Shown here: positions 2,333-64,000 of the stretch, piece after piece | Numbering within the stretch: the first letter of the stretch is position 1 | Layout of the letters: every line of letters begins with the position of its first letter | From: Lepidurus packardi | Taxonomy: Eukaryota > Arthropoda > Branchiopoda > Notostraca > Triopsidae | Direction: 5' to 3' | Assembly: GCA_023053545.1 (NCBI GenBank) | Contig: JAKZAN010000002.1 | Span: 2,216,375-2,280,374 of the forward strand | Length of the DNA stretch: 64,000 nt | Position numbers and translations under genes: made by a program | The notes under the pieces: generated by a model | Seen by the model: the letters and a program-made list of their open reading frames with translations, nothing else | Databases searched by the model: none | What the model was told of the DNA's origin: nothing

Positions 2333-2833
2333 AAACTGAATTTTTTAAAAAGGAGTAAGGTCTAAAAAAATAAAAAAAAAGTCCATCCTCTGGCAATGGG
2401 ACACCGCACGAGGCGGTTAATGCTACTATGCGGGTAATGCTCACTGCATGGCTTTGAGCGGAGCCCGCAATTCGCGGCGCGAAGAAAAAGTCATTTTTGT
2501 GATCGAGCTTGTAAATTAACCAAAGCACATAAGGACTTGTTTAAACATTCTAAAAAAAGATAATGGTGCCATCCCTACGAATAAAATGTCCGATTTTGAA
2601 TGCGCTCATAGGTAAAGGCGCTAGCTCTAAGGCAACTGACCCCCATGTTATAAGGATAGGAAAATTTTAAATTTGGAGCAAAGGGGAGGAGCTTAAACCG
2701 CTAAATAATTAATTACTAGGTTAATTACATAATTGACAGGGATCTTTCAGCCAGAACACTTAATTTGTTCTGTTCTATAACATACTTTTTTGGGTTTTTT
2801 TAGACCTTACTCCCCCTTAAAAAAATCCGAGTT
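2333..2833. mobile_element. MITE-like element with ~45-base terminal inverted repeats
   Basis: The left end (2333-2382) and the right end (2789-2833, reverse complement) share a 19-base exact core, GGAGTAAGGTCTAAAAAAA, within about 45 bases of imperfect inverted repeat. The outermost shared bases read AAACT. The 400-base interior has no coding capacity. Size and structure fit a non-autonomous DNA transposon. I could not define a convincing target-site duplication, so the outer borders are approximate. Confidence 0.6.
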
Positions 2834-2917: not shown

Positions 2918-3737
2918 CAAAGATCAGTTGATAGCCTTCGCCCTGCCAAAGTACTCGTCTGTAATGGCAGCAGAGCTTGTTGGCATTAAAGAGGCAATAA
3001 AAACAATCGAAAATGTAGAGATGGCTACCTACGTAATACTCACAGACTCACGAGCGGCGGTCACAGCTATCAAAAAGTACGGTAACAAAAAATACTTCCG
3101 GCTAGTCCAAGAAATACAAGACTCACTTTTAAAACATAAAAAGCAAGGGAGAACTATAGTTATACAATGGATACCAGGACACGAAGGGATAGCCGGAAAC
3201 GAAAAAGCTGACTTAGCAGCCAAACTCGGGAGGGACACGGACTGCCAAAACGAACGGGGTTTAACAAGTTCAGAGTTAGTTACGGTATATAGAGAAAAAA
3301 ACGAGCAAAGGATTTGTAGATACCTAAAAGAAGAATCCCAACAAACAATAGTGCAACACGCTCGAAGATTAAAACCCCTTCCATGGCTGGACCATCCCAA
3401 CAGAAGAGTCTCAGTAGCTTTACTAAGATTAAGATGCAACCATGCCAAAGTGGGAGCATGGTTGTATAGATTCCAACTAAAAGATACGGACAATTGCGAA
3501 GGGTGCGGAATGCGAAACGACACGGTCGAACATAAATTGTTACACTGCTTAGAATACGAAAATGAAAGAAATATCTGGAAAAATAAGGTGGAAAAATTGA
3601 AAGTGGACTTTAGACTAGAAAACTTACTGGGCTTTGGAAACATAGACCAGGAGAGACAGTATAAAATGAGAAACCTACTAGTGGAGTATATAAAGCTTAC
3701 AAAAATCATCAACATAGTATAAAAAAAAAAAAAAGAA

Positions 3738-4064: not shown

Positions 4065-4383
4065 AATATTTTCTTTCTTGCTGTTCTCTGGATGCGGACG
4101 TCAACAAGCTGTGGTGGTTTTGCATATTAATCAATCGTTTGACCTCATCATTTGATATAACTTGTGAATGCAGCTGACTAATATGTAAGCTCAATCATCG
4201 TCATTTGCTTTTCGAAAACATATCCCTTCTGTGTAGTTTGCTTTATCAGTGGTTTCACACACGAAGCGAAAGAAAACTCAATGAGCACATCGCGCATTTT
4301 TCGCATGTCGAAATAATAAGTTTGTGTTGCACTAGGTAAATTATGTGATCGTTCACGGCTTGTTTGGGCAATAGTTCGATATT

Positions 4384-7300
4384 ATGGATGAAGATTATGA
4401 TCGCGACGATATGCGGAGAAACGACAGAGGTCACAACAACAGGAGACATTTAGGGGGAATGGCTATGAAACGAGAACTTGTAATGAGGACGTTTATGTTA
4501 GGCAGGAAAGGTAAGTAAATCTCTTTTTACGCAGATAATGTATAACCAGTTTGAGTGTACACGTTTTCTCGTTGGTTTCGTTTAGGCACAGAAAAAACTA
4601 TCGAGATTAACGACCCAATGAGATTTGCCGGCGATGGCGTGTCATTCAAAGCCAAATTGATTGGAGTCTTAGAAGTAGCAGCTCCTCGAGGTGACCGATT
4701 ATGTCAAGAAGCATTAGCAGAACTCAAAATGGCGGTCAAAGCTGCTGGCGAACACAAACAACGTATACTCATTTGCATTGCTTTAGACGGACTTAGATTA
4801 CGCGATGAGCGCTCTGGAGTAAGTTAAAAGTCAATCAATGCTTGCGTTTTTAACAGTTTCAACGGGATGTTTACTTACAGGATTGCTTATATCATCACCC
4901 CGTGCACAAAATTTCATTCATTGCCCAAGATATGACGGATACTCGTGCGTTTGGTTACATTTTCGGGTCACCGGACCAAGGCCATCGCTTCTTTGGCATT
5001 AAAACCGATAAAGGCGCAAACACGGTATTGGAATTAAGCTCTTTATCCTCCTTTTTACGCATGATAATCTCTTCCTGAAAGGTGGTAATGGCTATGCGGG
5101 ATCTATTCCAAGTAGTTTACGATTTAAAGAAGAAGGAAATCGAGCGAGCACGTCTCCAAGCCGAAAACCAAGCTCTGAGAACGGTAGGGACCCCTCTCGT
5201 GATCAAACATTAGTTACCTAATATTAAACATTGATATCTTGTTTTCTAGAATGGGTCACATCTGGCCACATCTAGAGATAGTTTAGACCAAACTTCTAGC
5301 CATGCTGATCCCCAGTATGGTGATTTACTGCACCTCGAGTCCGAGTTAACAAGCTTGCAAGAAGGATTGCATCGTTTCGAAAACTTTCCTCAACCAGCCT
5401 CAGGTTCTTTCGATCCCTTTGAAGAGTTTGGGATGCATTCTTCAACCGAACCTGTTCCAATCAAACGAGCCGAGAATGGCCTCAAGACTAAAACAGAGCC
5501 GAATCCTTTTACTATGGCTCCCTTTCAGGAAAAAGTCCACGCTCCAAGTCCTTCTCTTACATCAAGCCTTTCCTCCAAACCTCGGACTTATTTGAAAGAG
5601 CTACGCCCTCATTCCAAAAGCCCGTTTCCCAACTCGGAAATGCCCCTCTACCCACCCCCCCTGCCTCCTCCTTTAGCGCATCGCTCGCCCTCCAACAAGC
5701 GGGAGGAGGCCAAGAAAATGTCGACTGCCGTTCCGCGTCCTTCATCATCCAATTCACCCGCCTTGCAACCCCCACAAGCATCACCCTTACGTACCACCTT
5801 CTGTACCAACTTCAACGTGGACCTTTTCCATCACAACGACTCATTCGTTGCGTCGTTTCCTGTCTCCATGGCGGCAAAACCGCCCCCTTCCTTGGCTGTC
5901 GACTCTCCTGCATCCAGAGCCAGTCAAGATCCGCCCTTCGGAGATAAATATGCCGTTTTTGCTGGCTTATCAGAGGAAGTTGTACATCAGCAACCTAATG
6001 AACCTCACGCGTCGTCCACCCACCTTTTTCGTGGCCCAGCTGCTAACTTATCGACCAGCAACACAACTTTCGAAGCCGATTTCGGAGACACGTTTGATTT
6101 CAATGCTGAAACTGAATTTCAAGACAGTGCAGCTAAAGTAGGAAACCTTTTAAAAAGAAACTAATTTAAGCAGTATCTTAATTGTTACTTCTGATTTTAA
6201 GATCGATTTTAAGTTTTTATTAATTTTCATGCATTCCTTGAATTTTAATTACTTTTCAGTTTAAGTTAATTTGTGTTCATTTCATTCATTTTTCGGTTTC
6301 ATTAATGGACTCGCTTAGATTAATGTTCTAGGCTTTGTTTGTTCATTCAAGTTCCTTCGTTTGCTCATGAATAATCCGTGTCTAAATCTCTGTCCATCTG
6401 TTTTAACATGTGTTATTTCGTTTGTTAATTTATTCCATGGGTACTAATGTATTCGTTTTATTTGGAAACCGCAGAACAACGAGTCGCCTGTTTTTGACAT
6501 CTTCACGGAATTAGACCCCTTAGGAACGGGCAAAAGCAAGCCTTACGTGGACAAGAAGGACTTTTTCAAGGATTTGAAAAAACCTTTGGAAAAACCCGCC
6601 TTGAAAGTCTTGGCAGGCGAAGAAGAAAGACTGGCCGTGAATGTTCCCAAGGATCTGCAAATGGTTCTGGAAACGAGTTACAAACAAGAACAAACACCGC
6701 GCTCAGCTTCCCTATCTCGTCCAGCACCCAAGCCGGCCGAATTTGATTTTGAAATTGAGGACACAGATCCCTTTGGCAGTATCCACTTTGTTCCACCGCC
6801 TGAAACGGACCCTTTCGACACCGACATCACCTCTGCAGGGGTGTTTTTCACCCCAGCGCCTGCGTTACCTTCTTCGCCGCTGTTGAATGCGAAAAGGAAG
6901 CAGTTCCAAGCTGCAGAATCTCTCTCGTCCATATCCTTCCATGCCACTTTGCCGCGTGGACCACTCAAAGTGACTCTTCCCGTCAAGGAAGACGCTAACG
7001 AACCCAAAGAAGGGCGTAAATTGTCTCCTTTAAGGCGGTCTGACACCGGCAGCCCACTTTCGAGCCGCAAACAATTCACTTTAGATGACAGTTCACCATT
7101 AGCGTTTCCCACGTTACAACCTCCTCCACGACATGAGAAAACCACGTCCACCACCTTGCCTCGCCCTTTACGTCAAGCCTCCCTTACCCGCCAAACGCCA
7201 GACACGCCCCCTTTACCTCCTTTACCCAGAATGGAAGATCTGACGCTCTGGCGCATTGAAAGTGCGCAGGATAAGGAACTCCGTGCTCAAGAGCAAGCCG

Positions 7301-35302: not shown

Positions 35303-38300
35303 ATGGCGTGGCAACCTGAGCACGATGGATTATTGCAAATTTTGCAGTTATTAAAGGAATCCCAGTCGCCAGATACAGCTACGCAACGAGCAGTCCAGCA
35401 GGTAAAATGGTTTAAAAAGTTTTCTGGAGTTTTGAAGGGAAAAATTGTCAGTTTATGAACGGATTCCTAGTTTGGGGCAACCCAGCGCTTTCTGTTGCCG
35501 TTTTTCCATCCGGTATTCAGTCCTTGTTACGTAATTTGTCGGTCTTTTTGGTTGTAGAAATTGGAGGAGCTGAACAAGTATCCCGATTTCAATAGTTACT
35601 TGATCTTCGTTTTGACGAAGTTGACATCAGAAGATGAACCGACTCGCTCTTTGAGTGGCTTGATCCTCAAGAACAATGTTAAGGCACATTTTCACAAATT
35701 TCCCGCCCCGGTGGCAGAGTTCATCAAGAGCGAATGCCTTTCAGCTGTTGGCGATCCATCGCCTTTAATTCGGGCTACTGTGGGCATTCTGATTACGACG
35801 ATTGCTTCCAGAGGTGAACTGACCAATTGGCCTCAACTTCTACCCAAGCTTTGTGAACTGCTCGACTCCCAAGACTATCACGTCTGCGAAGTAAGCTTCT
35901 AAAACTACTTTTTCGTTTTGAGTTCTCGAAGGGCTAATCTTGTCGTCTTGCTTTTCGGTCTATTCAGGGAGCGTTTGGAGCTTTGCAGAAGATTTGTGAA
36001 GACTCTGCCGAACTTTTAGACACTGACGCCTTGAATAGACCTTTGAACGTCCTCATTCCCAAGTTCATCCAGTTTTTCCAACATTCAAGTCCTAAAATTA
36101 GATCTCACGCCATTGCTTGTGTCAATCAGTTTATTATTGGCCGCGCCCAAGCATTAATGGTCCACATTGACAATTTTCTACAGGTAAGAAAATCCATAAT
36201 TTCTCCTTAGAGAAAGTATCATGTCTTTTCTTGTATGGATAGAGTTTGTTCCATTTGGCTTCGGATGAGGACCCAGAAGTAAGGAAGAATGTCTGCCGGG
36301 CCTTGGTCATGCTTCTGGATGTGCGAATGGATCGATTGATGCCTCACATGCACAATATTATTGACGTAAGTTAAACATGATTGGTATTGCAAAAGAAGCT
36401 AGCTTTAAAAAGCATATCTTTGTTTTTATTTCAGTACATGCTACATCGTACCCAAGATCAAAATGAGAATGTGGCTCTGGAAGCTTGTGAGTTTTGGCTG
36501 TCTTTGGCTGAGCATCCTATTTGTCGGGACGTTTTGGCTCCAAACTTGCCGAAACTAGTGCCCGTTCTAGTGCGAGGAATGCGCTACTCTGAAATTGATG
36601 TCATCCTACTCAAAGTAAGCCAAACTTCGTTTCTTACTTGAATTTCCCTTCCGTTTGTAGTAGTACCAATTTCCTAATAAATTACTGATTTAATGCCCAT
36701 CTGTCCCTTTCGCTTTCAAAAGGGCGACGTGGAGGAAGATGAAATGATTCCAGACAGAGAGCAAGATATTCGTCCACGTTTCCACAAATCCCGCACTCAT
36801 CAGATACGGCACAGTATTGGTTCCGATGGAGGCACCGGTGAAAACGGCGAGCCAGCTCTCACAAGTGACGACGAGGACGATGATGATGGAATGGACTCGG
36901 ACGAAGCTTTATCTGATTGGAATCTACGTAAGTTTGCAACCGGCCTTTTGTTCGAGGCCTTTCTTAAAGGGCTATAGCCACCAAAACCACATGTTAGGAT
37001 TGAATTGATACTTATAGCTCATGTTATTCGAAGAACACTGAACCTTGTTTTAAATTTAGACCAGTTTAAAATTTAGTCTAGTCAACCTTAGTTTATCTTG
37101 CAGTATACATAACAAAGGGTCAATTATACACGAACAGAAGCAGACAGTTGATTACTCGCAAACCACGTGACGGGGCCAGCCAGTGGCAATATCGCCAGAT
37201 TCAAATCTATCGTAATGTCTTGTGCAATAACAAAATTCAATTACTAATTTTAGTAGGATGGAAAAGATACATATCGTAAGAAATTAGAGTTTCACTCTTA
37301 TGGGTAAGATGGAAGTTGATTTTTGGCTAGAGCCCTTTAACCCTTCACTGGCCCTTTAAGTATTGCGGCGGGGTATAGTCTTGTATGTCCGGTATGGTCT
37401 AGTGGTTAGGATAGCTGGCTCTCACCCAGCAGGCCCGGGTTCGATTCCCGGTACCGGAACTTTTTATTACCTTGAATTCTCACTTTATTAATCTTTAATA
37501 CTTTGATTAACTATGCAATTATTTACTAGTGTTCTTTAATTATTAAACTAAAATTTTTGTTTTTTGATGAGGTTGTATTCGATTTATATTTTATTTTGTC
37601 TACAGGCAAGTGCAGTGCAGCTGCCTTAGACGTTTTAGCCAACGTTTTCAGAGACGATTTACTGCCCGTGTTGTTGCCAATATTGAAGGAAACGCTGTTT
37701 CACCAAGAATGGGAAGTCAAAGAGTCTGGAATTCTGGCTCTGGGTGCCATAGCTGAGGGTAAATTACCTCATTGCAATTTTTCTAGTTTCTCATCAATTA
37801 GCAGAACATTTTTTTTAAACAGTCTTTTTAAAAATCTCTTCAAATTGCTAACGTTAATTTATGTATGCATTTCTTGTTGACAATAGGTTGTATGAGTGGA
37901 ATGATTCCTCACTTGCAAGAACTGGTGCCCTACCTTGTCAACTGCTTGTCGGATAAAAAAGCTTTAGTTCGTGCTATAACGTGCTGGACCTTGAGTCGGT
38001 ATTCGCATTGGGTGGTTGGCCAGCCACACGACATGTTCCTGAAGCCCTTAATGACAGAAGTAAGCCTAGTGTGCTTTACAAAGGCTGTAAAAGGTGGACA
38101 CTAACTGGTTTTAAACGTCTTGTAGTTGCTGAAACGTGTCTTGGATGCGAACAAGCGCGTCCAGGAAGCAGCGTGCTCGGCATTCGCCACTTTAGAAGAG
38201 GAAGCTTGCACCGAGCTGGTACCTTACTTGGGATTCATTCTGGAAACGCTGGTTTTTGCCTTCAGCAAATATCAGGTAGCAATTTATCATCTCAAACTTG

Positions 38301-49898: not shown

Positions 49899-49959
49899 GA
49901 AAAAAAAGTACAAAGACGGCAAAGAGCGATGCTCTTGCCGTCTTTGTACTTTTTTTTTC
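49899..49959. repeat. Long, nearly perfect hairpin
   Basis: Arms 49899-49927 and 49931-49959 are reverse complements apart from two one-base slips (AAAGAGC against GCTCTT, and 8 against 9 A/T). The loop is only GAT. The core GTACAAAGACGG pairs with CCGTCTTTGTAC. The right arm ends in nine T. The loop is too small for a normal microRNA precursor, so a fold-back mobile element relic or a transcript-ending structure is more likely. Confidence 0.7.
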
Positions 49960-51539: not shown

Positions 51540-52033
51540 GAAAAGAACGCGGTAAGAGTGAAGGTCGATTCTGATTGGCTGACGATTTAGAAAACTTCCT
51601 AATAGATGGGAAAGTCACGCTTATACATCGCAAGTCGTTGGGACCTTTCCCCAGCGGACTAAAAAGTGACCACCAAAAGATAAATATTTTTATCTTCGAG
51701 GAAGCTCCAGAGGGAGCGTTTCTTGTCGATCCTGACAGCGCTTACGAATTGGACGTTCAGTGACGACCAGGGCGGGAAGGTACTTGCGCAAAAAACTCCA
51801 ATGTGTATAAGTGGGGCTTAGTATAGGTCTATAGTTGCTGCTAATGTTAAAGTTAAAGACAAACCCATAGTATAAAGCTTTACACAGTAGGATAACACGG
51901 AAAAACCTACTCGGAACATCAATATTAGGGCTACTGTTTGCCTTATTACAGACCCCGTCTCGTGTGGTTATCTTGTTGAAACGAATAAAAATGTGCAGGC
52001 TATCGGGAACGTAAAAAGATCGTTAGCTAAACC
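51540..52033. other. Spacer between Harbinger remnant and gypsy LTR, nothing recognised
   Basis: 494 bases without a supportable gene. A 62-codon frame at 51575-51763 resembles nothing known. This region may contain the outer part of the Harbinger element. Confidence 0.4.
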
Positions 52034-52202
52034 TGTTATATACCGAACACAACACACGTGGGGGTTCGAACTCACAGAGGAAACCAATGTATTGAATGTT
52101 TGAGTGAACACGCTCGACTGACCCAGTCTGAGAGACGTGGGTCCTTTTTATACCGGGACATGGGGGGGGGGGGGGGGAAAGGGGGTGTGTGTACCTACAA
52201 CA
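52034..52202 (-). repeat. Candidate 3' LTR of the Ty3/gypsy element
   Basis: On the minus strand it starts TGTTGTAGG and ends TATATAACA, the TG...CA form of LTRs. It holds TATAAAAAGG (plus 52143-52152) followed about 25 bases on by a TCAGTCG initiator-like sequence, as in LTR promoters. It is adjacent to the end of pol. The 169-base length is short, and no second copy lies in the window to prove the borders. A G16 run on the plus strand (near 52162-52177) lies inside. Confidence 0.4.
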
Positions 52203-52227
52203 TCACATCATTATCCCTTACTTAAAA

Positions 52228-54439
52228 TTAACACTCAGGGTAGCGACGTGGAGGGCGACACAAGTTTGTTCGGCGGGAGCGACGTGGTTGAGGATCCATT
52301 TCAAGGTCTAACGGGATTTCGATGACCTCTGGCGGATAGTAACGGCGAATCCGTCGGGCGTTCCAGGTTTGTCCGTCTGAAAGCTGGAATACATAATTCC
52401 CCAGGACCTTGGTCACTGTAAGGATGTCACTGTAAGGAGATTGCCCTTGCGGACCATGGATGATGGTCGGCGGACTCGGACCTGCTCTCCGACTTTGAAT
52501 AGGGGTGATGATTTTTGTCGTATGACTTGTGCGTCGAAAGTAACACGGCACGGAGCCCTGATGGGAATGACAGGCCCTGACGGTTGGCTTACTTCGGCTT
52601 CTTTGCGGGGCTCGAACGCCAGGCGTGGACGGCGGTTAAACATCAACTCGGCGGGTGATTTCACGTCTGGATCGGGGCGTTCGGCGCGAAAGCGGGCTAG
52701 CATTTCGGTCATCCCTTTTTTAAAATCAAAAGGGCCACTGGAAAGCGCTTGGGCATGAAATTTGATTGTTCGGTTGAACACTTCAACTTTCCCATTTGCT
52801 TGAGGATGATAGACTGGCGTCCGATGATGCTTGATGTCTCTGCTGCTGAGGAAGTTGGCGAGGGCAGAGCTGATGAATTCGGGACCGTTATCGCTGACCA
52901 AAATGCTGGGGTTGCCGTAACGTGCGAACGCATCGTCAAGAAAGTTAATTACTGTCGTTGCGTTGTGGTTAGCGGCACACGTGATTTCGGGAAAACCAGA
53001 GAAGTAGTCGATAAGCACTATGATGAACTGATGCTTAGATGGAGCGGTTGCGAAGGGACCTGTTACATCAATGGCGACCTTCTCCCACGGACCGGATGGT
53101 GGTGGCACACTGTCGGTTGGGATGCGACTCTTGGGGTCGGACTTCGACGAGTTTTGACAGCCGACACAGTGCTTAATGAAAGTTTCAATGTCGGTTGACA
53201 TGCCAGGCCACCAAAAGGATTCTCGAAGCTTGATCTTTGCTCGAACAATGCCTGGGTGTCCAGTGTGGGAAGCGCTGAGTAGTTGGCGACGTAAATTGAC
53301 CGGGATTACGATACGATCAGATTTAGTGATGCAACCATTGTTTTCGGACAGTTCATTGCGAACAGTGAAGAAGGGGCATAAGCTGGAGTCGTCTCTATGC
53401 TTCTTCGACCAAGTACCATTGGTGATGAGCTTGAGGATGGTTTGGCACGTCTTGTCGCCCGCAGTTTCTGTTGCAATTTGTTCGACCGACAATCCTGGAA
53501 TCGTGACGGATTTAACTGCCAGTGACGTTAATTCAGCTTGAGGAAGGCGAGATAGCATGTCCGGAACGGTGTTGCTGATCCCTGGTCGATGCTGAATGTC
53601 ATAGTCGAACTCGGCTAGCTGTAAGCGCCATCGATCAAATTTGTGGGCTTTGCGACCGTCACCGGACTGAGCCAGGATGGAGACCAATGCTTTGTGGTCT
53701 GTTATGAGAGTGAATCGGCAACCCAGGAGGAAATTGGACCAGTGATTGCAGGCCCAGACGCAGGCGAGTGCTTCGCGTTCGTTTGCTGCATAAACGCGTT
53801 CACGAGGCGTCAGGGTCTTGGAGGCGAAAGCAATGGGTACCAATCGACCATGTTGAAGTTGCGATAAACAGGCACCAATGCCAATGTTCGACGCGTCAGT
53901 GGAGACTACGGTTGGCTGATTGGGATCGAAGATGCTAAGCTTGAGGTCATTGGTCAGCATCGATTTAAGCTTATTGAAAGCAGTGGTGCATTCTTCTGAC
54001 CATTGGAAGGTTGTAACTTCGGTGGTCCTTGTGAGACGTTGAAGAGGATCGGTGAATTCTGCTAAGGAGGGCAAGAACTCGCGAAAGTAGTTGATGGATC
54101 CCAGGAAGCTGCGGACGTCCGTGATGGACGTTGGTTGGGGAGCGTTCCTGATTGCGTCGAGGCTTGCAGGATCAGGTTTGATACCTTTGCTGCTGAGGAT
54201 GTGACCCAAAAACTTGACTTCGGGAACGGCAAAACGACATTTGTCCAAGTTGACCCGAAAGTCTTTGTCAGCAAGTCGGCGTAGGACTTCGTGTAGACCG
54301 GCATCGTGCTCCTCTTGAGTTGATCCAAAAACTAAGATGTCGTCTTGATAATTTACGCATCCACGGCAGTCGACGAGAGTTTGGCTAACCAGTCGCTGGA
54401 AGACGGAAGCGGCATCTGTCAACCCCATTGGAAGACGTT
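52228..54439 (-). pseudogene. Ty3/gypsy pol, 3' part (RT palm to integrase C terminus), cut by BEL insertion
   Basis: On the minus strand the frame enters from the BEL insertion at KRLPMGLTDAASVFQRL and runs through RT (NYQDDILVFG, catalytic YxDD), RNase H (STDASNIGIGACL, NEREALACVWACNHW, TDHKALVSIL) and integrase. The integrase has an HHCC zinc part (SHTGHPGI, CVGCQ) and a core with D in VAIDVTGPF, D in LVSDNGPEF, and E in QANGKVEVFNR. The C terminus includes FKVGEQVRVRRPSSMVRKG. Near 52442-52446 three G occur where the other copy (62155-62160) has four, so the frame shifts and stops at 52413; the original tail is still readable at 52228-52551. The open frame's first ~35 residues (54440-54542) are translated BEL LTR, not gypsy. 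The N-terminal RT part is at 61020-61377. Confidence 0.9.
54435..54439. repeat. Target-site duplication of BEL insertion, left
   Basis: ACGTT directly before the left LTR (54440). The same five bases follow the right LTR at 61020-61024. Both lie in the gypsy codons for the KR-LP stretch of RT. Confidence 0.85.
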
Positions 54440-54758
54440 TGTTACCAACAGTTATGGCCAACACCGTTGGGCAATTGGCGATCGAGGTTCGTGTTAAGGG
54501 AGAAAAGTCAGGTCGAATGTATTTAACTCGAACGTAACACAAACAGCTCCAAACTCAAGTAACACCCACCCAACACCGACACGTCACTTAGATCACCTTT
54601 CATCAAGCCTTTCTACAACCTTCCTTCTCCCTGTTCAATCGCAACTGTCTTTCTCCCTTTCGAGACAACCGCGAGCTCCCCTTTGTCCCTCTTTCTCTTT
54701 CCTTTCCATTCCCTTTCCTTTCATTCTTTCCCCTTCCGGACTGTACTTGTCCGGAACA
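54440..54758 (-). repeat. BEL LTR (3' LTR)
   Basis: 319 bases, plus-strand ends TGTTACC...GGAACA, so both strands give the TG...CA form. Confidence 0.92.
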
Positions 54759-54871
54759 ACGCCGGCCCAGTTTTGTTCCCAAAACTTATTAAACAGCCGA
54801 GTCTTCTGGGGTGGCGTCTTCAGCTTCTTCAAGTAGGCACAGTTTCGTCACGGGTCTAACATATTCACCGC

Positions 54872-57187
54872 TCACAGTCTTGATGACCGCGGTGCGAACG
54901 ACACCATCCGGTCCGGGATGGTTTCAGTAACACGGCCTAAAGGCCACCGCCTTCGGGGACTATTGTGGTCCACTACAATTACGACGTCTCCCGGTCGTAA
55001 ATTTCGCCGAGCCTTAAGCCATGTCCGACGCTCGATCAAGTTGGGAACGTATTCCCTTAACCAACGTCGCCAAAATCCATTAGCAATGATTTGTGAAGAA
55101 CGCCAACGCTTCCGGGAGCTAACTTCCTCCTCGCAGAAGATGTCAGGGGGAATGTTGGGATTAGCCCTTCCCAAGAGAAAGTGGTTCGGCGTTAGCGGCT
55201 GCAGGTCACGATGGTCCAGGCTAACGTGAGTTAAGGGGCGGCTGTTGATAAGCGACTCAACCTCTACCATTACGGTGGCGAGTACCTCGTCGGTTACCGT
55301 TCGGTTTTTTAAGGTAGCACGCAAGGCGACCTTGGCAGAGCGAACCATCCGCTCCCATACACCCCCAAAGTGTGGAGCCGCAGGGGGGGAGAAGTGCCAA
55401 GTAATTCCCCTCTCGGAAACGTCATTTAGCAACTTGTCAGATTTTAGGTTTTGCAAACCTTCTCGTAGTATCCTTTCGCCCGCTACTAAATTGGTTCCGT
55501 TGTCGCTGTAGCAGGTAACGGAGCAGCCACGCCTACCGATGAACCGTCGTAGGGCCATTAAAAACGCGTCGGCATCCAACGATTCGGTGAGTTCAATATG
55601 GACGGCCCGCGTGACTAAGCAGGTAAAAATGCATCCATAGCGTTTGTGTATTCTGCGGTGAATAACTACTTGCAAAGGGCCAAAAAAGTCGACGCCTGTG
55701 TTCGTAAATGCTGGCATGGACGATTGCAGACGATCCTTTGGTAGGGCCGCCATCATGGGAGTTTGCGGCTGACTCCTTGCCTTCCGACAAGTTACACACT
55801 TCCGTACCATGCCTTGTACTGTTGACCGTCCACGTAACACCCAATATGTCTGCTGTAATTCGCAAAGCGTGCGTTCAGTAGAGGGGTGCAATAAACGTTC
55901 GTGGATGTCGCGGATTATCAGAGTTGTGAGTGGATGGTTCGGGCATAAAAGAATCGGGTTGCGAGTATCGGGATCAACTTGGGCGTGCTGGATTCTTCCA
56001 TCCGCTCGGATCAGCCCGTCATGGTCGATGACTGGGTTCAGCTTTGAGAGACGTGAGCTGACCTTAATTCCATTGCCGTCTTGTAAGGCCTTATGCTCTT
56101 CGGCGAAAGAAGAAAGCTGGGCCGTCTTGAGGCATATTATCATAGCCCCTCTCAGCTCCACAGCATCAAGGCATCCGCGTTTTCTGTTTTCGGAGTTTAC
56201 CCGGCAGTTTCGGGCGAAGCGAAGAATGTATGCGACAACACGCCTGATTCGCGCGAGACGGGATGACTTCTCGAACAGGTCGTCTATCTCCTTTGTGGGT
56301 TCCTCTATAAGGCCGGCCCATTTCGTTAGGACGACTTCCGGATCGTGAATCGGACTTTGCTCGAACGTGTCTTGGTTCGACCAGGTGATTTGCGGAGTAA
56401 GCAGGAAGTCGGGGCCGCTGAACCAGCGTTTTCCATTAACGAAGTCTCGAGCCAACAGTCCACGGCTGCATTCGTCAGCTGGGTTCTGCTTCCCGGCAAT
56501 GTGACGCCACTGTGTAGGGTCCGTAAGCTCTAGGATCTCTCTGACCCTGTTAGCCACGAATGTAGTAAGACGATGGGTTGAACGCAACCATTTTAATACT
56601 GTCGTGGAGTCGGTCCAGAGGTAGGACTCCTGTACGGGCATCGCGAGCTCCTTCATAACTGTACAAGACAAACGTGCCGCCACCAGTGCTCCAAGAAGTT
56701 CGAGTCTCGGAATCGTTAGTTGTTTTATGGGGGCAACGCGAGACTTAGACATGACAAATACCACTGACCGTTCTCCAGAAGTGTAGAACAATCTCAGGTA
56801 ACTCACCGCGCCGTATCCTATTTCGGAAGCGTCACTGAACGTGTGGAGTTGGGCGGAGGAAATCGGAGTGTCATCTCTTCTGAAACAGCGGTCGATGGAT
56901 AACGAATTAAGACATTCGCGTTCGCTTAGCCAAGACTCCCAGGTGTTCGCGAGCCCTGATGGCAGGTCTTCGTCCCAATCGATGTTGAGACGCCAAATCT
57001 CCTGGAGGAGGGATTTTGCCACAAGTATCACCGGTGACAGGAAGCCAAGCGGATCGAAAATGATTGATACCGTCCTTAGGACATTCCTTTTGGTGTACTT
57101 GCACTCTCCAATGGTGATCTTGAAAGACAATGTGTCCCATTTCGGCGTTCCATAGCATTCCAAGCGTCCGTTCAATCGGGAGTTCAT
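54872..57187 (-). pseudogene. BEL/Pao pol, RNase H and integrase part
   Basis: Open frame of 771 codons, of which the first ~10 are out of the true frame. It has the RT-to-RNase H linker (SIIFDPLGFLSPV), RNase H (LHTFSDASEIGYGAV, LELLGALVAARL, WTDSTTVL), the HHCC integrase part (HERLLHPSTERTL, CVTCRKARSQ), and an integrase core with all three acids: D in FTNTGVDFFGPL, D in CYSDNGTN, and E in HFGGVWERMV. A BEL-type C-terminal domain (PGDVVIVVDHNSPRRRWPLG) follows. Catalytic residues look intact. It is separated from RT by a one-base frame change near 57150. Confidence 0.88.
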
Positions 57188-58430
57188 CTAGGTCGAGGTC
57201 CAGCTTCGGGTCCAAACGTTCGACGCTTGGAAGAGATCCCATCACCCTTCTAGAGCTGGACAGCCACTTAGTCAGTTTGAACCCACCGCGACGCAACAGG
57301 TTAGATAGCTCACTACAGGTTGCAATCACCTGTTCCTCCGTATTAGTGGAGTCCAGTAAGTTATCAACATACATGTTTGCTTTGATTTTTTCGATGAGGT
57401 CTGGCCGGTCAGGTGAAAAGGCTTCCGCCGTCCTTCGCAGAGCAAACATGCAGATTGAGGGTGATGATACCGCTCCAAAGATTTGGACGGTCATCTGATA
57501 AGTGCGTGGGGCCGACGTCTCTCCGGGTGACCTCCAAAGGAAGCGGAGAGCAGCTTGATCTTCCGGTTTCACCCTAACTTGGTGGAACATTTTTTCCACG
57601 TCCGACGAAACAGCGACAAGACCTTCACGGAGTCTAGTGAGAAGTCCGGGTAAACTGACGATGAAATCGGGACCTCGAAGTAGGCAGCAATTTAGGGAAA
57701 CACCATCGTGTTTCGCTGAGGCATCGAAGACTACGCGTATCTTATCGGGTTTGTTGGGGTTGATCACCCCATGATGGGGAAGAAACCAAGTTCGACCCTT
57801 GGGGCCTTCGAGTTCGTTGGGCTGCAGTGGTCTCGCGTGTCCGAGGGAGATGTATTCGTCGATTACGGCCTCGTATCTTATAGCGAATTCGGGGTCCCGA
57901 GAAAATCTCCTCTCCATCGTGAATAAACGCTTCAGGGCGGAACTTCGATTGTTAGGTAGAGTAGTTTCTGGAGACTTCCATGGCAAGCCGATCTCGAAGC
58001 GTTCTCCGTCATGGTAGATGGAACTCTCGAAGACTTGCAAGGCCTTCGTGTCTTCTGGACTAGCTGGGATATCCTTTTTTGCGATCCCTAGCGTTTCTAT
58101 GGTCCAGAATTTCTCCACCAATCCGTGGAGGTCTTGTAGTTCGGGTGAGGGCTCACATCTAATCATGTTGCAGCTGCCAGGACGCGATTCCGGGGTCCAG
58201 AAAGGGTAGCACCCAACGACGGACCAACCAAAACGTGTTAACATAGCGGTCGGGGCTGATACACCTGGAGGTGGTTCGCGCCAATCGAGTTGTTTGTGCG
58301 CTCTGATCGCATCGTGGCCCACGAGTACGGTAACCTGAGACGCGTCGACTTCAGGTAGGTCGAGATCTGCCAAGTGAGACCATTTCTTCTTTTCTTCGGG
58401 CCAATTAATATACCATCGCGAAACGTTCAC
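56907..58430 (-). pseudogene. BEL/Pao pol, protease-RT part
   Basis: Open frame of 507 codons, in the same frame as the upstream gag-protease and separated from it by one TAA. It starts only because the first in-frame codon after that stop is GTG. RT blocks are KIRVVFDASAKHDGVSLN, LLTRLREGLVAVSSDVEKMF and FLWRSPGE. The YxDD box reads MYVDNLLDS, with Asn at the second Asp position. The last ~90 residues are out of frame after the slip near 57150 and are not real RT/RNase H sequence. Confidence 0.85.
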
Positions 58431-58457
58431 TCGGGGAACGGAGAGTGCCTTTGGAAT

Positions 58458-60653
58458 TTAGATTGTCGTTGTCCGGTCTATGGATTCGATGGAAAAGTTC
58501 ACCCTGTGCGCATCTACTTCCGGATCTTGACCATGATATGTTCCGAGTTGCAGGCGTACCGGATCTCCTTGTAGTCCAAGCTGTGCTGCTGCGTCGTTTC
58601 GGATTAGGGTGACCTCGCTACCAGGGTCAAATAAGGCGAAGGTGTCGAAGTACCTGCCTTCTGCCTTAAGCCTCACTGGGGTTACGTAGAGCAGCGTTCG
58701 GCCGACTGCCCCATTAGAAGCCACAGCGTTGATCATCGGAACGGCTGGTTTCTCTTCGCTGTTCGGTGAGTTTCCAGTTCTGATGGTCGTAGCGGAATTT
58801 GCTTCGTAACTGCTTCGGGGTGCACCATGTAGTAGCTTGTGGTGCAAGGACTTACAGCCGTTAACCTCGCAAATGTCTGTTCGGTTACATTGTCTGCCTA
58901 GGTGCCCATTGCGGAGGCACCTAAAACAGAGACCCTTGCTCTTCGCCACTGAAATCCGCTCGGTTGGCGAAAGACCTGTGAACTTGTCACAGTCTTCGAT
59001 CGGGTGCTGCTCGTTGCAGACAATACATTCATTTGTCGTGCTATCGCGATTGTCGATACTCGTTGCTAGTACGGTCGGGGAGAAACGCGGTTTCGTTGTG
59101 TTGGGAGTCTTCGGAACACTCCCTTCTCGTTTCGTCGGTTCTGGCTTACACGTAGGCCGTACCAGCTTTTCCGCCATGACTTGGTCGGCCAACCATGCGT
59201 CAAAATCAGGAAGCGTCGGGGAACGCGGTCGGAGGCGGAGCATATGGTGTCCCCACTTGCTTCGTAAACGTGGAGGTAACTTCTGGACCAACTGCTCAAG
59301 GGTCGCCACAGACGCAAGCTCTTGACTATATCCGCTGCTATGCAGAGTGTTAATGGATCCGCGAATTTTACGAGAGAAGGACTGAAGGGCTTCAAACTCC
59401 TCGTTTCTGAGCGGTGGAATCTCCAGCATGGTCCGTATGTAGGCGCGGGCGATTAACTGGGGGTGTCCATAGTTCTTGCGGAGTTCCTGGAGCGCTTGTC
59501 GATATAACAACGGGCTGTGTAGGCTTTCAGCTATACTCTCTCTGATCTCGGGAGTCAGCATTTCTCGGAGCATGGCAATCCTTTGCGCGTCATTGGGTAT
59601 GACGTCGTGCACCAGACTCTTGAAACTGTCGATAAAAAGCGTCCAGTTTTTTGGGTCACCATCGAAAGGTTTCAATTCTAGCTTGGGCATGACTCCCATA
59701 ATCCAGGGCGCGTACGCAAAGGTGGAGGGAGGCGGAGCAATGTTGTTGGAGCTGTCTTGTTGAGTAGCCCATGACGTAAAGTCGTCCCTCTGTCGCGTGC
59801 GGTTCGCCCTTAAACTGTCGATCCACCCGTCCGGTCGGGCGGCTGACGTCATGGGTTCAGGTAAGACGGGCGTCCCGTTCAGTGTCGCACCGAAGAAATC
59901 GCCCTGTACTGCCTGAGGCCTAGTCTCCGACCACACTGTTCGAGGCTTCGGGGGTATGAGTGTAGCGTGTCTCATACCGTTTGCCGCTGAGGCAGCCTCG
60001 TCGGGGTAATCTTCGGCTTCAACGGTCTGCAGGTGCTCGATTTCGGCCCTCTTCTGTTCCACCTCGGTAGCAGCCTTGCGTATCTCGCGGTTGCGCTCCA
60101 CATGTGTACGAAGTTGCACGATTTCATGATGATTTCGTTGATTTGTCAGGATGAGGTCGTGAAGTCGTCGGGTGGTCTGAATTTCTTCTTCGGCTGCAAT
60201 CTTCAATTCCTGAAGCCGTATGGCTCCTTGGTCGTGTTCAAGTTTGGCTTCCTGAAGGCGTGTGCTAACGGCTGATTTCGCGGACGTAGAGGAAGAGGAA
60301 ACTTCGGAGGGGGGTCGGTTCTTCAGGTATTCGTCGACCTTGTCCAGGCAATCGTGCAGTTCTTTCCGTAAGCTTTCAGCCCACGTGGCTTGCGAAAGTT
60401 CTGTAATCTCTTCGATCCGGTTATTCAGCCGGAGGCATTGCTCATGCAGGTCGGTGAGTTGGTATCGCAATGTTCGGATTTCTGAACGTCGTTTTTGAGC
60501 ATTTATTGTATCCAGGATAAAGTTTATGTGCTTGGTGTGTTGGGTTTTGCCGATTCTACGTTGAATTTTGAGGCTTTCCACACTAATTAAGTCTATAACT
60601 TCGTCATCCCTCTCGGGGTTCAAAGACGTCGTAGGGATCTTCGCGGTGGCCAT
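58458..60653 (-). CDS. BEL/Pao gag and start of aspartic protease
   Basis: 731 codons from ATG 60653, 24 bases after the primer site. The N-terminal half is coiled-coil-like with DUF1759-type gag features (WTLFIDSFKSLVHD, PPRLRSKWGHHML). A zinc-binding region follows (CIVCNEQHPIEDC, then a CCHC knuckle CFRCLRNGHLGRQC), then a charged linker and a retropepsin-like motif (FALFDPGSEVTLI, about residue 690), in which DPGS replaces the common DSGS. The frame stops at a TAA at 58458, but coding-like sequence continues beyond it in the same frame. Confidence 0.88.
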   Translation of the reverse strand: MATAKIPTTSLNPERDDEVIDLISVESLKIQRRIGKTQHTKHINFILDTINAQKRRSEIRTLRYQLTDLHEQCLRLNNRIEEITELSQATWAESLRKELHDCLDKVDEYLKNRPPSEVSSSSTSAKSAVSTRLQEAKLEHDQGAIRLQELKIAAEEEIQTTRRLHDLILTNQRNHHEIVQLRTHVERNREIRKAATEVEQKRAEIEHLQTVEAEDYPDEAASAANGMRHATLIPPKPRTVWSETRPQAVQGDFFGATLNGTPVLPEPMTSAARPDGWIDSLRANRTRQRDDFTSWATQQDSSNNIAPPPSTFAYAPWIMGVMPKLELKPFDGDPKNWTLFIDSFKSLVHDVIPNDAQRIAMLREMLTPEIRESIAESLHSPLLYRQALQELRKNYGHPQLIARAYIRTMLEIPPLRNEEFEALQSFSRKIRGSINTLHSSGYSQELASVATLEQLVQKLPPRLRSKWGHHMLRLRPRSPTLPDFDAWLADQVMAEKLVRPTCKPEPTKREGSVPKTPNTTKPRFSPTVLATSIDNRDSTTNECIVCNEQHPIEDCDKFTGLSPTERISVAKSKGLCFRCLRNGHLGRQCNRTDICEVNGCKSLHHKLLHGAPRSSYEANSATTIRTGNSPNSEEKPAVPMINAVASNGAVGRTLLYVTPVRLKAEGRYFDTFALFDPGSEVTLIRNDAAAQLGLQGDPVRLQLGTYHGQDPEVDAHRVNFSIESIDRTTTI

Positions 60654-60676
60654 TTTCGGGTGTTAACGGTTTCGGT

Positions 60677-60694
60677 TCCCGGGTTTCGGCACCA
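60677..60694 (-). other. BEL primer-binding site
   Basis: Minus-strand TGGTGCCGAAACCCGGGA, six bases inside the 5' LTR. It starts with TGG, matching the CCA end of a tRNA. I did not assign the tRNA. Confidence 0.6.
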
Positions 60695-60700
60695 GCAAAT

Positions 60701-61019
60701 TGTTACCAACAGTTATGGCCAACACCGTTGGGCAATTGGCGATCGAGGTTCGTGTTAAGGGAGAAAAATCAGGTCGAATGTATTTAACTCGAACGTAACA
60801 CAAACAGCTCCAAACTCAAGTAACACCCACCCAACACCGACACGTCACTTAGATCACCTTTCATCAAGCCTTTCTACAACCTTCCTTCTCCCTGTTCAAT
60901 CGCAACTGCCTTTCTCCCTTTCGAGACAACCGCGAGCTCCCCTTTGTCCCTCTTTCTCTTTCCTTTCCATTCCCTTTCCTTTCATTCTTTCCCCTTCCGG
61001 ACTGTACTTGTCCGGAACA
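60701..61019 (-). repeat. BEL LTR (5' LTR)
   Basis: 319 bases, same ends as 54440-54758. It agrees with the third LTR at 62556-62874 at both positions where it differs from the left one. Confidence 0.92.
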
Positions 61020-61024
61020 ACGTT
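61020..61024. repeat. Target-site duplication of BEL insertion, right
   Basis: ACGTT after the 5' LTR, matching 54435-54439. Confidence 0.85.
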
Positions 61025-61377
61025 TGTACTGGTAAATGCCGGAAGGTGTGATCGTCGTGGTTAGCGGACGACTGTCCGGTGCCAGTGGGATGTGCCAGTA
61101 GCCTTTTGAGAGGTCGATCTTGGAAAAGACGGTAGCGCCTAGCAGTTGAAGGTAAAGGTCGTTGATCCTGGGCAATGGGTGATGTTCCGGAATAACGAAT
61201 TTGTTGAGTGGAGACAAATCGGTGGTAATTCGGATCTGTCCATTACCCTTAGGGACGCAAACGAGGTGATGAGCCCATTGGCACGGCTTGCAGACCTTCT
61301 CCCAGATGTCGTTGTCAACCATGGATTGGATCTCAGAACTGACAGCTTCACGCTGTCACTGAACTGACAGTTGCAGG
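61020..61377 (-). pseudogene. Ty3/gypsy RT, N-terminal part, right side of BEL insertion
   Basis: Minus-strand frame with the gypsy RT opening: EIQSMVDNDIWEKVCKPC, QWAHHLVCVPKGNGQIRI, TTDLSPLNKFVIPEHHPLPR and FSKIDLSKGYWHIPLAP. It ends at SGIYQYK directly against the target duplication. The rest of RT is at 54439 and below. The upstream end stops abruptly at about 61365-61377, where it joins a scrambled junction instead of protease. Confidence 0.88.
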
Positions 61378-61394
61378 ACCTTGGTCACTGTAAG

Positions 61395-61920
61395 TGAGAG
61401 AGAGTGACGAAACTGGAACCGAATTTGTAAGTCGTCTTCGTACTCTTCAAGCTGATTGTAACTACGATAACTTCAACGCTGATATGGACCTGGCTTACTG
61501 CTTAGCACAAAACTGTTTTAACACCGAAGCCCAGAAGCGTTTATTCACTGCAACTACGATATCGTTGGAAACGTATCTCAACATCATCCAAGCGGTAGAG
61601 AACGCTGATGCGAGTACCTTAGCAGTTCGAGGCAGTACAACTCCGGTGCAAACCATAAAGCAGAACATCCAGCGTCAACGCAATCCGAATCGACGTCAAC
61701 CTCAGCAAAACAACCGTCGTAGAGATCCGACGCCAAATAGCACCAAGGCTCCGTGTCGAGGATGTGGTTCTACCAAACATGTCTACCGCTCAGACGATTG
61801 CCCGGCTAAAACCGCAAAATGCTTCCATTGCCAGCGAACCGGCCATTTCTCTAAGCGATGCGAGTCCAAGCGTCGCCAATGTAACCAGTCCCATCAAGAC
61901 CCTCCTGATGAATTGCGTCG
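61395..61920 (+). pseudogene. Ty3/gypsy gag fragment with two zinc knuckles
   Basis: Plus-strand frame (61394-61966) with gag-like sequence (GTEFVSRLRTLQADCNYDNF, AYCLAQNCFNTEAQKRLF), an RRQPQQNNRRR basic stretch, and two knuckles: CRGCGSTKHVYRSDDCPAK, then CFHCQRTGHFSKRC. The 5' end of gag is missing, and at about 61915-61925 the sequence switches to integrase C terminus in another frame, so protease, RT, RNase H and the integrase core are deleted. It probably belongs to the same gypsy family as 52228-54439. Confidence 0.8.
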
Positions 61921-62200
61921 AACGCCCCGATCCAGACGTGAAATCACCCGCCGAGTTGATGTTTAACCGCCGTCCACGCCTGGCGTTCGAGCCCCGCAAA
62001 GAAGCCGAAGTAAGCCAACCGTCAGGGCCTGTCATTCCCATCAGGGCTCCGTGCCGTGTTACTTTCGACGCACAAGTCATACGACAAAAATCATCACCCC
62101 TATTCAAAGTCGGAGAGCAGGTCCGAGTCCGCCGACCATCATCCATGGTCCGCAAGGGGCAATCTCCTTACAGTGACATCCTTACAGTGACCAAGGTCCT
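61921..62200 (+). pseudogene. Ty3/gypsy integrase C terminus, second copy
   Basis: Repeats in plus orientation the segment present in minus orientation at about 52400-52680 (ERPDPDVKSPAELMFNRRPR through FKVGEQVRVRRPSSMVRKG and SPYSDILTVTKVL). It keeps four G at 62155-62160, where the left copy has three, so this copy shows the unshifted frame. It ends at a junction to gypsy RT. Confidence 0.85.
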
Positions 62201-62220
62201 GCAACTGTCAGTTCAGTGAC

Positions 62221-62555
62221 AGCGTGAAGCTGTCAGTTCTGAGATCCAATCCATGGTTGACAACGACATCTGGGAGAAGGTCTGCAAGCCGTGCCAATGG
62301 GCTCATCACCTCGTTTGCGTCCCTAAGGGTAATGGACAGATCCGAATTACCACCGATTTGTCTCCACTCAACAAATTCGTTATTCCGGAACATCACCCAT
62401 TGCCCAGGATCAACGACCTTTACCTTCAACTGCTAGGCGCTACCGTCTTTTCCAAGATCGACCTCTCAAAAGGCTACTGGCACATCCCACTGGCACCGGA
62501 CAGTCGTCCGCTAACCACGACGATCACACCTTCCGGCATTTACCAGTACAAACGT
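62221..62555 (+). pseudogene. Ty3/gypsy RT N-terminal part, inverted copy
   Basis: Same protein blocks as 61020-61377 (MVDNDIWEKVCKPC to SGIYQYK), on the plus strand. It is again interrupted at the ACGTT target (62551-62555) by a BEL LTR, exactly as on the left. Confidence 0.88.
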
Positions 62556-62874
62556 TGTTCCGGACAAGTACAGTCCGGAAGGGGAAAGAATGAAAGGAAA
62601 GGGAATGGAAAGGAAAGAGAAAGAGGGACAAAGGGGAGCTCGCGGTTGTCTCGAAAGGGAGAAAGGCAGTTGCGATTGAACAGGGAGAAGGAAGGTTGTA
62701 GAAAGGCTTGATGAAAGGTGATCTAAGTGACGTGTCGGTGTTGGGTGGGTGTTACTTGAGTTTGGAGCTGTTTGTGTTACGTTCGAGTTAAATACATTCG
62801 ACCTGATTTTTCTCCCTTAACACGAACCTCGATCGCCAATTGCCCAACGGTGTTGGCCATAACTGTTGGTAACA
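62556..62874 (+). repeat. BEL LTR of the inverted copy
   Basis: Mirror of 60701-61019, TGTTCCGG...GGTAACA on the plus strand, followed six bases on by the primer site at 62881-62898. Confidence 0.92.
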
Positions 62875-62921
62875 ATTTGCTGGTGCCGAAACCCGGGAAC
62901 CGAAACCGTTAACACCCGAAA

Positions 62922-64000
62922 ATGGCCACCGCGAAGATCCCTACGACGTCTTTGAACCCCGAGAGGGATGACGAAGTTATAGACTTAATTAGTGTGGAAA
63001 GCCTCAAAATTCAACGTAGAATCGGCAAAACCCAACACACCAAGCACATAAACTTTATCCTGGATACAATAAATGCTCAAAAACGACGTTCAGAAATCCG
63101 AACATTGCGATACCAACTCACCGACCTGCATGAGCAATGCCTCCGGCTGAATAACCGGATCGAAGAGATTACAGAACTTTCGCAAGCCACGTGGGCTGAA
63201 AGCTTACGGAAAGAACTGCACGATTGCCTGGACAAGGTCGACGAATACCTGAAGAACCGACCCCCCTCCGAAGTTTCCTCTTCCTCTACGTCCGCGAAAT
63301 CAGCCGTTAGCACACGCCTTCAGGAAGCCAAACTTGAACACGACCAAGGAGCCATACGGCTTCAGGAATTGAAGATTGCAGCCGAAGAAGAAATTCAGAC
63401 CACCCGACGACTTCACGACCTCATCCTGACAAATCAACGAAATCATCATGAAATCGTGCAACTTCGTACACATGTGGAGCGCAACCGCGAGATACGCAAG
63501 GCTGCTACCGAGGTGGAACAGAAGAGGGCCGAAATCGAGCACCTGCAGACCGTTGAAGCCGAAGATTACCCCGACGAGGCTGCCTCAGCGGCAAACGGTA
63601 TGAGACACGCTACACTCATACCCCCGAAGCCTCGAACAGTGTGGTCGGAGACTAGGCCTCAGGCAGTACAGGGCGATTTCTTCGGTGCGACACTGAACGG
63701 GCCGGCCGTCTTACCTGAACCCATGACGTCAGCCGCCCGACCGGACGGGTGGATCGACAGTTTAAGGGCGAACCGCACGCGACAGAGGGACGACTTTACG
63801 TCATGGGCTACTCAACAAGACAGCTCCAACAACATTGCTCCGCCTCCCTCCACCTTTGCGTACGCGCCCTGGATTATGGGAGTCATGCCCAAGCTAGAAT
63901 TGAAACCTTTCGATGGTGACCCAAAAAACTGGACGCTTTTTATCGACAGTTTCAAGAGTCTGGTGCACGACGTCATACCCAATGACGCGCAAAGGATTGC
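62922..64000 (+). CDS. BEL/Pao gag, partial
   Basis: Opens MATAKIPTTSLNPERDDEV and stays open to the window end (359 codons seen). It matches the left copy (58458-60653) apart from two residues near 63702-63705 (NGPAVLP where the other copy has NGTPVLP). Confidence 0.88.
   Translation, partial: MATAKIPTTSLNPERDDEVIDLISVESLKIQRRIGKTQHTKHINFILDTINAQKRRSEIRTLRYQLTDLHEQCLRLNNRIEEITELSQATWAESLRKELHDCLDKVDEYLKNRPPSEVSSSSTSAKSAVSTRLQEAKLEHDQGAIRLQELKIAAEEEIQTTRRLHDLILTNQRNHHEIVQLRTHVERNREIRKAATEVEQKRAEIEHLQTVEAEDYPDEAASAANGMRHATLIPPKPRTVWSETRPQAVQGDFFGATLNGPAVLPEPMTSAARPDGWIDSLRANRTRQRDDFTSWATQQDSSNNIAPPPSTFAYAPWIMGVMPKLELKPFDGDPKNWTLFIDSFKSLVHDVIPNDAQRI

Follow-up and report, generated by a model that had tools for sequence, protein, structure and literature searches.

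Introduction

Long terminal repeat (LTR) retrotransposons nested within one another are a known arrangement, and the capture of complementary DNA (cDNA) of the yeast element Ty1 at chromosome breaks is reportedly treated in the 1996 work of Teng, Kim and Gabriel. We have analyzed a locus of Lepidurus packardi at which a nest of LTR retrotransposons stands as a mirror image of itself. The window, that is, the whole stretch of 64,000 nucleotides (nt) under study, is G000:C2:2216375-2280374; it contains the left arm and the beginning of the right arm of a palindrome of about 19.5 kb on contig C2. Each arm carries an element of BEL/Pao type, here called E, inside a 5'-truncated and rearranged element of Ty3/gypsy type, here called H; the rearranged form is written H*, and H*(E) when it carries E. 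The origin that we favour, at about even probability, is that an incomplete retro-cDNA of H*(E), which had kept its 3'-LTR end, met another copy of H carrying E head to head, and that the joined pair was sealed into a chromosome break. Read in this way, the palindrome is an unusual accident of known processes and not a new class of element. Plain coordinates are window positions, the genome searched is the 108.6-Mb assembly of 344 contigs, and the continuation to the right of the window is L009 (G000:C2:2280375-2290374), positions in which are also given as window equivalents.

Ty1 cDNA captured at double-strand breaks offers the nearest likeness. In the yeast study, such insertions end in a 3' LTR, are truncated on the other side, have no target duplication and contain fillers, all of which is also seen here (PMC10802722). 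Nucleotides found only in cDNA accompany 40 of 56 3'-LTR insertions at breaks in the same study (PMC10802722); the counterpart in the present genome is good at a joint on contig C232 and suggestive at the right end of the palindrome. The palindrome differs in consisting of two inverted 9.4-kb copies with a second element nested inside. Retroviral integration with one end made by integrase and the other by host enzymes, leading to deletions and inversions, is described in another report (PMC5041404). One normal LTR end, and other joints with a deletion, insertion or inversion, are shared with our locus, whereas that report deals with one provirus and the palindrome is a head-to-head pair in which both free ends are 3' LTRs (PMC5041404). 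Inverted-repeat amplification and fold-back inversion in yeast also give inverted copies round a short spacer, or a short templated fill; in these reports the arms appear to be set by replication or local microhomology, whereas those of the palindrome are set by LTR ends (PMC4689423, PMC11724301). Short fold-back insertions are mostly about 5-34 bp (PMC11724301). In common with other nested LTR retrotransposons, E lies in H with a 5-bp duplication of its own, the difference being that the nest in the palindrome is mirrored. A literature search on palindromic, head-to-head or captured LTR-retrotransposon cDNA gave no recognisable match by title or start of abstract, in a collection that leaves subscription journals mostly uncovered, and is no proof of absence.

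The palindrome and its arms

In the assembly the inverted duplication is genuinely present and well bounded. The original prediction described nearly perfect arms at 59575-61394 and 64000-62181, and the pairing is as it stated: facing positions add up to 123575 throughout, and over 1820 bp there are two mismatches, at 59870/63705 and at 59873/63702, and no indel. BLAST aligns these parts of the arms at 99.89% over 1820 bp with E = 0, which excludes chance pairing. The expectation that the arms run past the window edge was also borne out, since the right arm extends 7540 bases further into L009, and the whole mirror-image stretch is about five times the length visible to that first inspection. 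The left arm occupies 52034-61394 (9361 bp) and the right arm 62181-71540 in window-equivalent positions (9360 bp; 62181-64000 in the window, then L009:1-7540). They differ at 6 places, namely 5 substitutions (at 52076, 55522, 57346, 59870 and 59873) and one single-base indel, a G in the homopolymer at 52177; the 7540 bases of the right arm in L009 account for 3 of the substitutions and the single-base gap when compared with 52034-59574. Symmetry ends sharply. Inward from 61395 the facing positions mismatch at 297 of 393, and past 52034 and 71540 the left and right flanks are unlike each other. In 71541-124000 window-equivalent (the rest of L009 together with L010-L014) a search at E 1e-8 gave no other inverted match to the window; the same search returned two short same-strand matches in L010.

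Five pairs of mirror-image open frames had been claimed as well. Under a rule of an ATG start and at least 65 amino acids (aa), 6 frames are listed in total and one mirror pair, the one of 152 codons (60864-61322 on the minus strand, 62253-62711 on the plus strand); the pairs of 80, 78, 73 and 70 codons do not appear under this rule. Read from stop to stop, the mirror pairs number six (163, 101, 94, 86, 81 and 80 aa). The mirror frames are incidental, or portions of the retroelements.

Elements H and E

H is best seen in a complete copy on contig C6 (C6:9957523-9961985, 4463 bp), which has two 169-bp LTRs, 100% identical, and the target duplication GTAAC on both sides; a second complete copy, on C12, is flanked on both sides by CTAAG. 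The LTRs are direct, have TG..CA ends and are accompanied by a short target duplication in the complete copies, while the palindrome copies lack a 5' LTR. In the C6 copy a frame of 1369 aa, divided into three for the search, matches RVT_1, RT_RNaseH_2, Integrase_H2C2 and rve in that order, and for gag there is a Pfam match below the cut-off only. We take the order reverse transcriptase (RT), RNase H, integrase to be the mark of Ty3/gypsy, and on these domains H is classed as a Ty3/gypsy LTR retrotransposon. Positions of H pieces are given below on L022, the locus that holds the C6 copy. In each arm H is 5'-truncated and rearranged. In the left arm its 3' LTR occupies 52034-52210 on the minus strand, with its outer end at the end of the arm; it measures 177 bp, as against 169 bp in the C6 copy, and has a longer homopolymer. 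The 3' part of the internal region (end of RT, RNase H, integrase) follows at 52211-54439, also minus, and includes the outer copy of the E target duplication. Other traces among the matches listed are an LTR piece with 24 further bases on C1, a solo LTR on C48 with CCATG on both sides as read from the letters, a 41-bp piece on C16 and, on C4, a 79% relative of one internal H stretch. These places, together with C6, C12 and the palindrome, are lower bounds for the number of H sites. Beside the C6 copy, L022:964-2016 contains a 435-bp inverted repeat, 99.8% identical, with a 183-bp spacer; it is 79% related to window positions 2472-2821.

E lies inside H in the same orientation. In the left arm it spans 54440-61019 on the minus strand (6580 bp), with 319-bp LTRs at 54440-54758 and 60701-61019 (both minus) that have TG..CA ends and 2 differences. 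The LTR bounds were read from the junction letters; the raw repeat is 323 bp, the excess coming from a chance match of neighbouring bases. The target-site duplication ACGTT stands at 54435-54439 (outer copy), matching the empty site in the C6 copy of H, and at 61020-61024 (inner copy). The C6 copy is uninterrupted at the entry site, which confirms that E inserted into H. The second copy of E, in the right arm, begins at 62556 on the plus strand, so that 62556-64000 holds its 5' LTR and the start of its first frame, and extends to window-equivalent 69135. E has three open coding pieces (734, 516 and 771 aa) with matches to Peptidase_A17 (E 4.4e-51), DUF1759, DUF5641, RVT_1 and Integrase_H2C2. 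DUF1759 and DUF5641 are companions of BEL/Pao elements, and by its domains E is assigned to the BEL/Pao LTR retrotransposons. When the inner 1820 bp of the arm was compared with the genome, matches covering roughly the first 1.45 kb were listed at 7 places (C6, C16, C4 twice, C58, C96 and C5) with 98-99% identity, in each case accompanied by another match of 0.3 kb at a distance of about 5-6 kb, and at a broken-up place on C232. The spacing of the matches in G000:C96:40641-48139 suggests a second, partial copy of E that shares an LTR with the first; the stretch 57200-57500 is listed there once only, which rules out a full tandem.

Outer ends and flanks

Each arm stops at the exact outer base of the H 3' LTR, next to a differing flank. 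The left outer junction reads ...GCTAAACC up to the joint and TGTTATAT after it, and the right one ...ATATAACA and then TTTTTGGTTTTCC. No target duplication of 5 or 4 bp is present at the outer ends of the palindrome, where AAACC stands on one side and TTTTT on the other; the 5-bp duplication that would mark insertion of the whole as a single unit by integrase is thus lacking. End joining or one-ended integration is thereby favoured over a regular integration of both ends. The palindrome also differs from a fold-back element (a terminal-inverted-repeat DNA transposon) in having no target duplication and in carrying retroelement domains in its arms. The LTRs of both arms have variants in common, among them the fourth base from the end and the long homopolymer, that occur in 0 of 6 other H LTRs aligned, which points to a single source for both arms.

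The TTTT that follows the right LTR equals the first 4 bases after the H 5' LTR, leading into the likely primer binding site. In the right flank TTTT occurs at 1.5% of positions and TTT alone at 4.0%. The same flank contains GGTTT, a motif found within ten bases at 0.7-1.0% of its positions. TTTT favours cDNA and GGTTT a microhomology-primed DNA copy, and both were spotted after the fact. A search for an empty site with both 1.5-kb flanks found, besides the locus itself, dispersed repeats only, and no adjoining left and right pair among the matches listed; the closest pair, picked out by eye, lies about 6.4 kb apart on C3 (for one flank the best 40 of 506 candidates were scored).

Several repeats lie close to the palindrome. 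The 83 bp at 51949-52031, ending 2 bases left of it, are 76% like C2:2289558-2289640 in the same orientation; the partner is about 1.6 kb right of the palindrome, and the likeness stops at about the palindrome. In the right flank, L009:7608-8260 is a truncated piece that we take, from a motif, to be Tc1/mariner-like, and L009:8710-8966 is a 257-bp element with 26-bp inverted ends, of which the genome holds repeats of up to 99%.

The spacer and its junctions

The 786-bp spacer (61395-62180) is built of H pieces. Towards the centre of the left arm, E gives way to an H piece at 61020-61352 (minus; L022:4259-4591), a 21-nt filler at 61353-61373 that is mirrored in the right arm at 62202-62222, and a last H piece at 61374-61394 (minus; L022:6605-6625). 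A 4-nt filler (61395-61398) marks the single inversion junction (61394/61399). Beyond it follow a piece from near the 5' end of the H frame at 61399-61905 (plus; L022:3142-3648), a 9-nt filler at 61906-61914, and a second copy of 52402-52687 at 61915-62201 (plus; L022:6339-6625), the last 21 nt of which lie inside the right arm. The mirrored 21-nt filler and the mirror of 61020-61352, at 62223-62555 on the plus strand, then lead to the right copy of E. The two further junctions of the spacer preserve orientation. Read rightwards from the inversion, the order is thus the 4-nt filler, 3142-3648, the 9-nt filler, 6339-6625, the 21-nt filler and 4259-4591 with E at its end, continuing to 6985. In L022 coordinates H* can accordingly be written 3142-3648 / 6339-6625 / 4259-[E]-6985, where 6985 is the last base of the 3' LTR, and the left arm mirrors H* from 6605 outwards.

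The pattern of the 21-nt junction occurs in both arms and nowhere else in the genome by pattern search, and that of the 9-nt junction once. As the 21-nt junction is common to both arms, the duplication is later than that rearrangement of H. The filler itself resembles adjoining sequence (20 nt at 80%, direct) and has a 6-nt inverted match, CTGTCA, found by eye below the 10-nt minimum of the tool. The spacer copy of 6339-6625 and the arm copy share three variants relative to C6 and C12 (alignment columns 80, 112 and 122), which places the shuffled spacer pieces in the same H lineage as the arm. One G is absent from the arm copy and kept in the spacer, C6 and C12 (column 242), and the spacer copy has one private base (column 4).

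Relative age and polarity of the arm differences

Between the two LTRs of E there are 2 differences in 319 sites in the left arm and likewise 2 mismatches in the right arm; the arms differ by 5 substitutions per approximately 9360 positions. Read literally, these figures make the palindrome roughly one tenth the age of the E insertion, although conversion between the arms could lead to the same outcome. When polarised against other copies, 5 of the 5 substitutions are derived on the left arm; this polarity covers the substitutions only. The right-arm base is found at 52076 in all 6 other H LTRs and in 4 of 4 loci in a second comparison, at 57346 in 8 of 8 other E loci (L009 and L070, being the right arm itself, were left out), at 59870 and 59873 in 7 of 7 loci, and at 55522 in one relative only, L062. 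The idea that the difference at 52076 goes back to two original LTRs was rejected, as the right arm and the 6 other H LTRs share the base and the change is private to the left arm.

A similar joint on contig C232

On C232 (L062, G000:C232:24900-28900) an inverted, truncated fragment of E breaks into the first frame of an E copy. ATTTGCTGG comes after the 3' LTR of the fragment, and the host E then resumes. ATTTGCTGG equals the bases next to the E 5' LTR, a stretch that reaches into the likely primer binding site; at a 3'-LTR end such bases are expected only in extrachromosomal cDNA or circles. The joint thus suggests a cDNA-type LTR end, and a stronger case for one than the right end of the palindrome. 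Two cautions apply: E at the joint reads ATTTTGAGG, so that ATTT and GG are compatible with either reading and GCT alone tells them apart, and the BLAST alignment with the host E runs on as far as the LTR end. The C232 copy suggests that the palindrome is not a single freak in this genome.

Origin of the palindrome

E inserted into H, giving the duplication ACGTT, and H was internally rearranged to H*; the arm was duplicated after the last of the H* junctions had formed. Minus-strand synthesis of LTR elements starts at the U5 side, so that a cDNA left unfinished keeps its 3'-LTR end whole and is ragged at the 5' end, and RNA of H*(E) may have been reverse-transcribed incompletely in just this manner. 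The ragged end of the cDNA would have been joined, via the 4-nt filler, to a broken, 5'-truncated H*(E), either one already resident or another cDNA made in the same particle. At its LTR end the first cDNA would have been attached to the other side of the break by one-ended integrase action or by host end joining, leaving no target duplication. The spacer would then be the stretch of the longer copy that lay beyond the reach of the shorter one. At its simplest, this account would make the right arm resident and derive the left one from the new cDNA, and the confinement of the substitutions to the left arm would then be explained. What we infer is that there was an RNA stage, in what order the ends were joined and which arm was resident. 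A DNA copy with random start or stop points would hardly yield exact LTR ends beside differing flanks, and the complete H copies on C6 and C12 and the C48 solo LTR carry the 5-bp target duplications that the palindrome lacks.

Several observations weigh on the other side. Among the genome matches listed there is no source of H*(E) besides the two arms, nor of its junctions. A 9-kb read-through RNA across E must have been copied whole, and direct repeats such as the E LTRs tend to be deleted in reverse transcription. Extra cDNA bases are absent at the left LTR end, and a likeness between the H leader and the right flank was rejected, as it did not reach beyond the T run (35 of 500 shuffles scored as high). 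The polarity of 5 in 5 has a two-sided p of 0.06 under equal rates, two of the five substitutions are 3 bp apart, and one was polarised by a single relative. Finally, GGTTT in the right flank is the complement of the left AAACC, five bases out.

This last observation fits copying at the DNA level, in which a resident H*(E), hit by a chromosome break or a stalled fork, would have been copied inversely (microhomology-mediated replication) and sealed with short fillers; AAACC and GGTTT stand one on each outer flank, with a five-base shift in register. Fillers and a single inversion junction are typical of such repair, and no RNA through E is required. However, a DNA copy should pass through the LTR into the flank, and its boundaries should be break points, whereas both outer boundaries are exact LTR ends; such a stop would be a coincidence of roughly one in thousands, estimated from the arm length. 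A version primed by microhomology avoids the coincidence but needs a further 5-nt deletion. We regard copying of this kind as rather unlikely. The original prediction had proposed a young palindrome made by fold-back or template-switch repair, or an artefact; its youth holds, if the arms were not homogenised instead, but the nested elements, the exact LTR ends and the H-derived spacer had gone unseen, and these together make a retro-cDNA origin likelier than plain DNA fold-back. Insertion of the palindrome as one molecule is conceivable but seems to us unlikely: an inverted cDNA dimer might have formed in one particle, the minus strand changing over to another minus strand or snapping back on itself, and this double-stranded element, bearing a U5-type 3' LTR at each end and lacking a 5' LTR, would have entered by way of both ends. 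The absent target duplication speaks against two-ended insertion of the dimer by integrase, not against the dimer itself.

An error of assembly, either a chimeric read or a misjoin induced by repeats, would account for the near identity of the arms, and the flanks are repeat-rich; the analysis covered assembled sequence. We hold it to be quite unlikely: the 786-bp spacer has two further rearranged junctions and is no point-symmetric fold, the arms differ at 6 places, and the inversion junction has a 4-nt filler where an overlap might be looked for. A fold-back read would presumably mirror the flank, yet exact LTR ends meet differing flanks. Two neighbouring insertions of H in opposite orientation, with loss of their facing 5' ends and homogenisation by gene conversion that also spread E, would yield two exact LTR ends, differing flanks and no common target duplication, and long inverted repeats do convert one another. 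But H is rare among the sites listed, which makes chance neighbours unlikely, and the LTR variants common to the arms require conversion over 9.36 kb to the last LTR bases; this, too, we hold to be quite unlikely. Should the favoured joining of retro-cDNA be correct, the locus is a base-resolved natural case of an incomplete cDNA helping to seal a break and thereby creating a 19.5-kb palindrome, and retrotransposon activity would be tied to long inverted repeats otherwise ascribed to replication errors. If the dimer was the source, an LTR retrotransposon would have inserted as a palindrome that reverse transcription itself had made.

Other features

Nine telomere units were tried at the 6 ends of 3 contigs and none was found doubled, except CCTAA at one end of C4, in satellite-like sequence. 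Elsewhere in the window, 49900-49957 is a 58-bp self-complementary stretch (93% with gaps). A tRNA-Glu (CTC) lies at 37388-37460, and an 84-bp stretch around it recurs in L010 at 98.8%. The 759-aa open frame at 31753-34032 matches BAF250_C (Osa/ARID1), which points to an animal genome.

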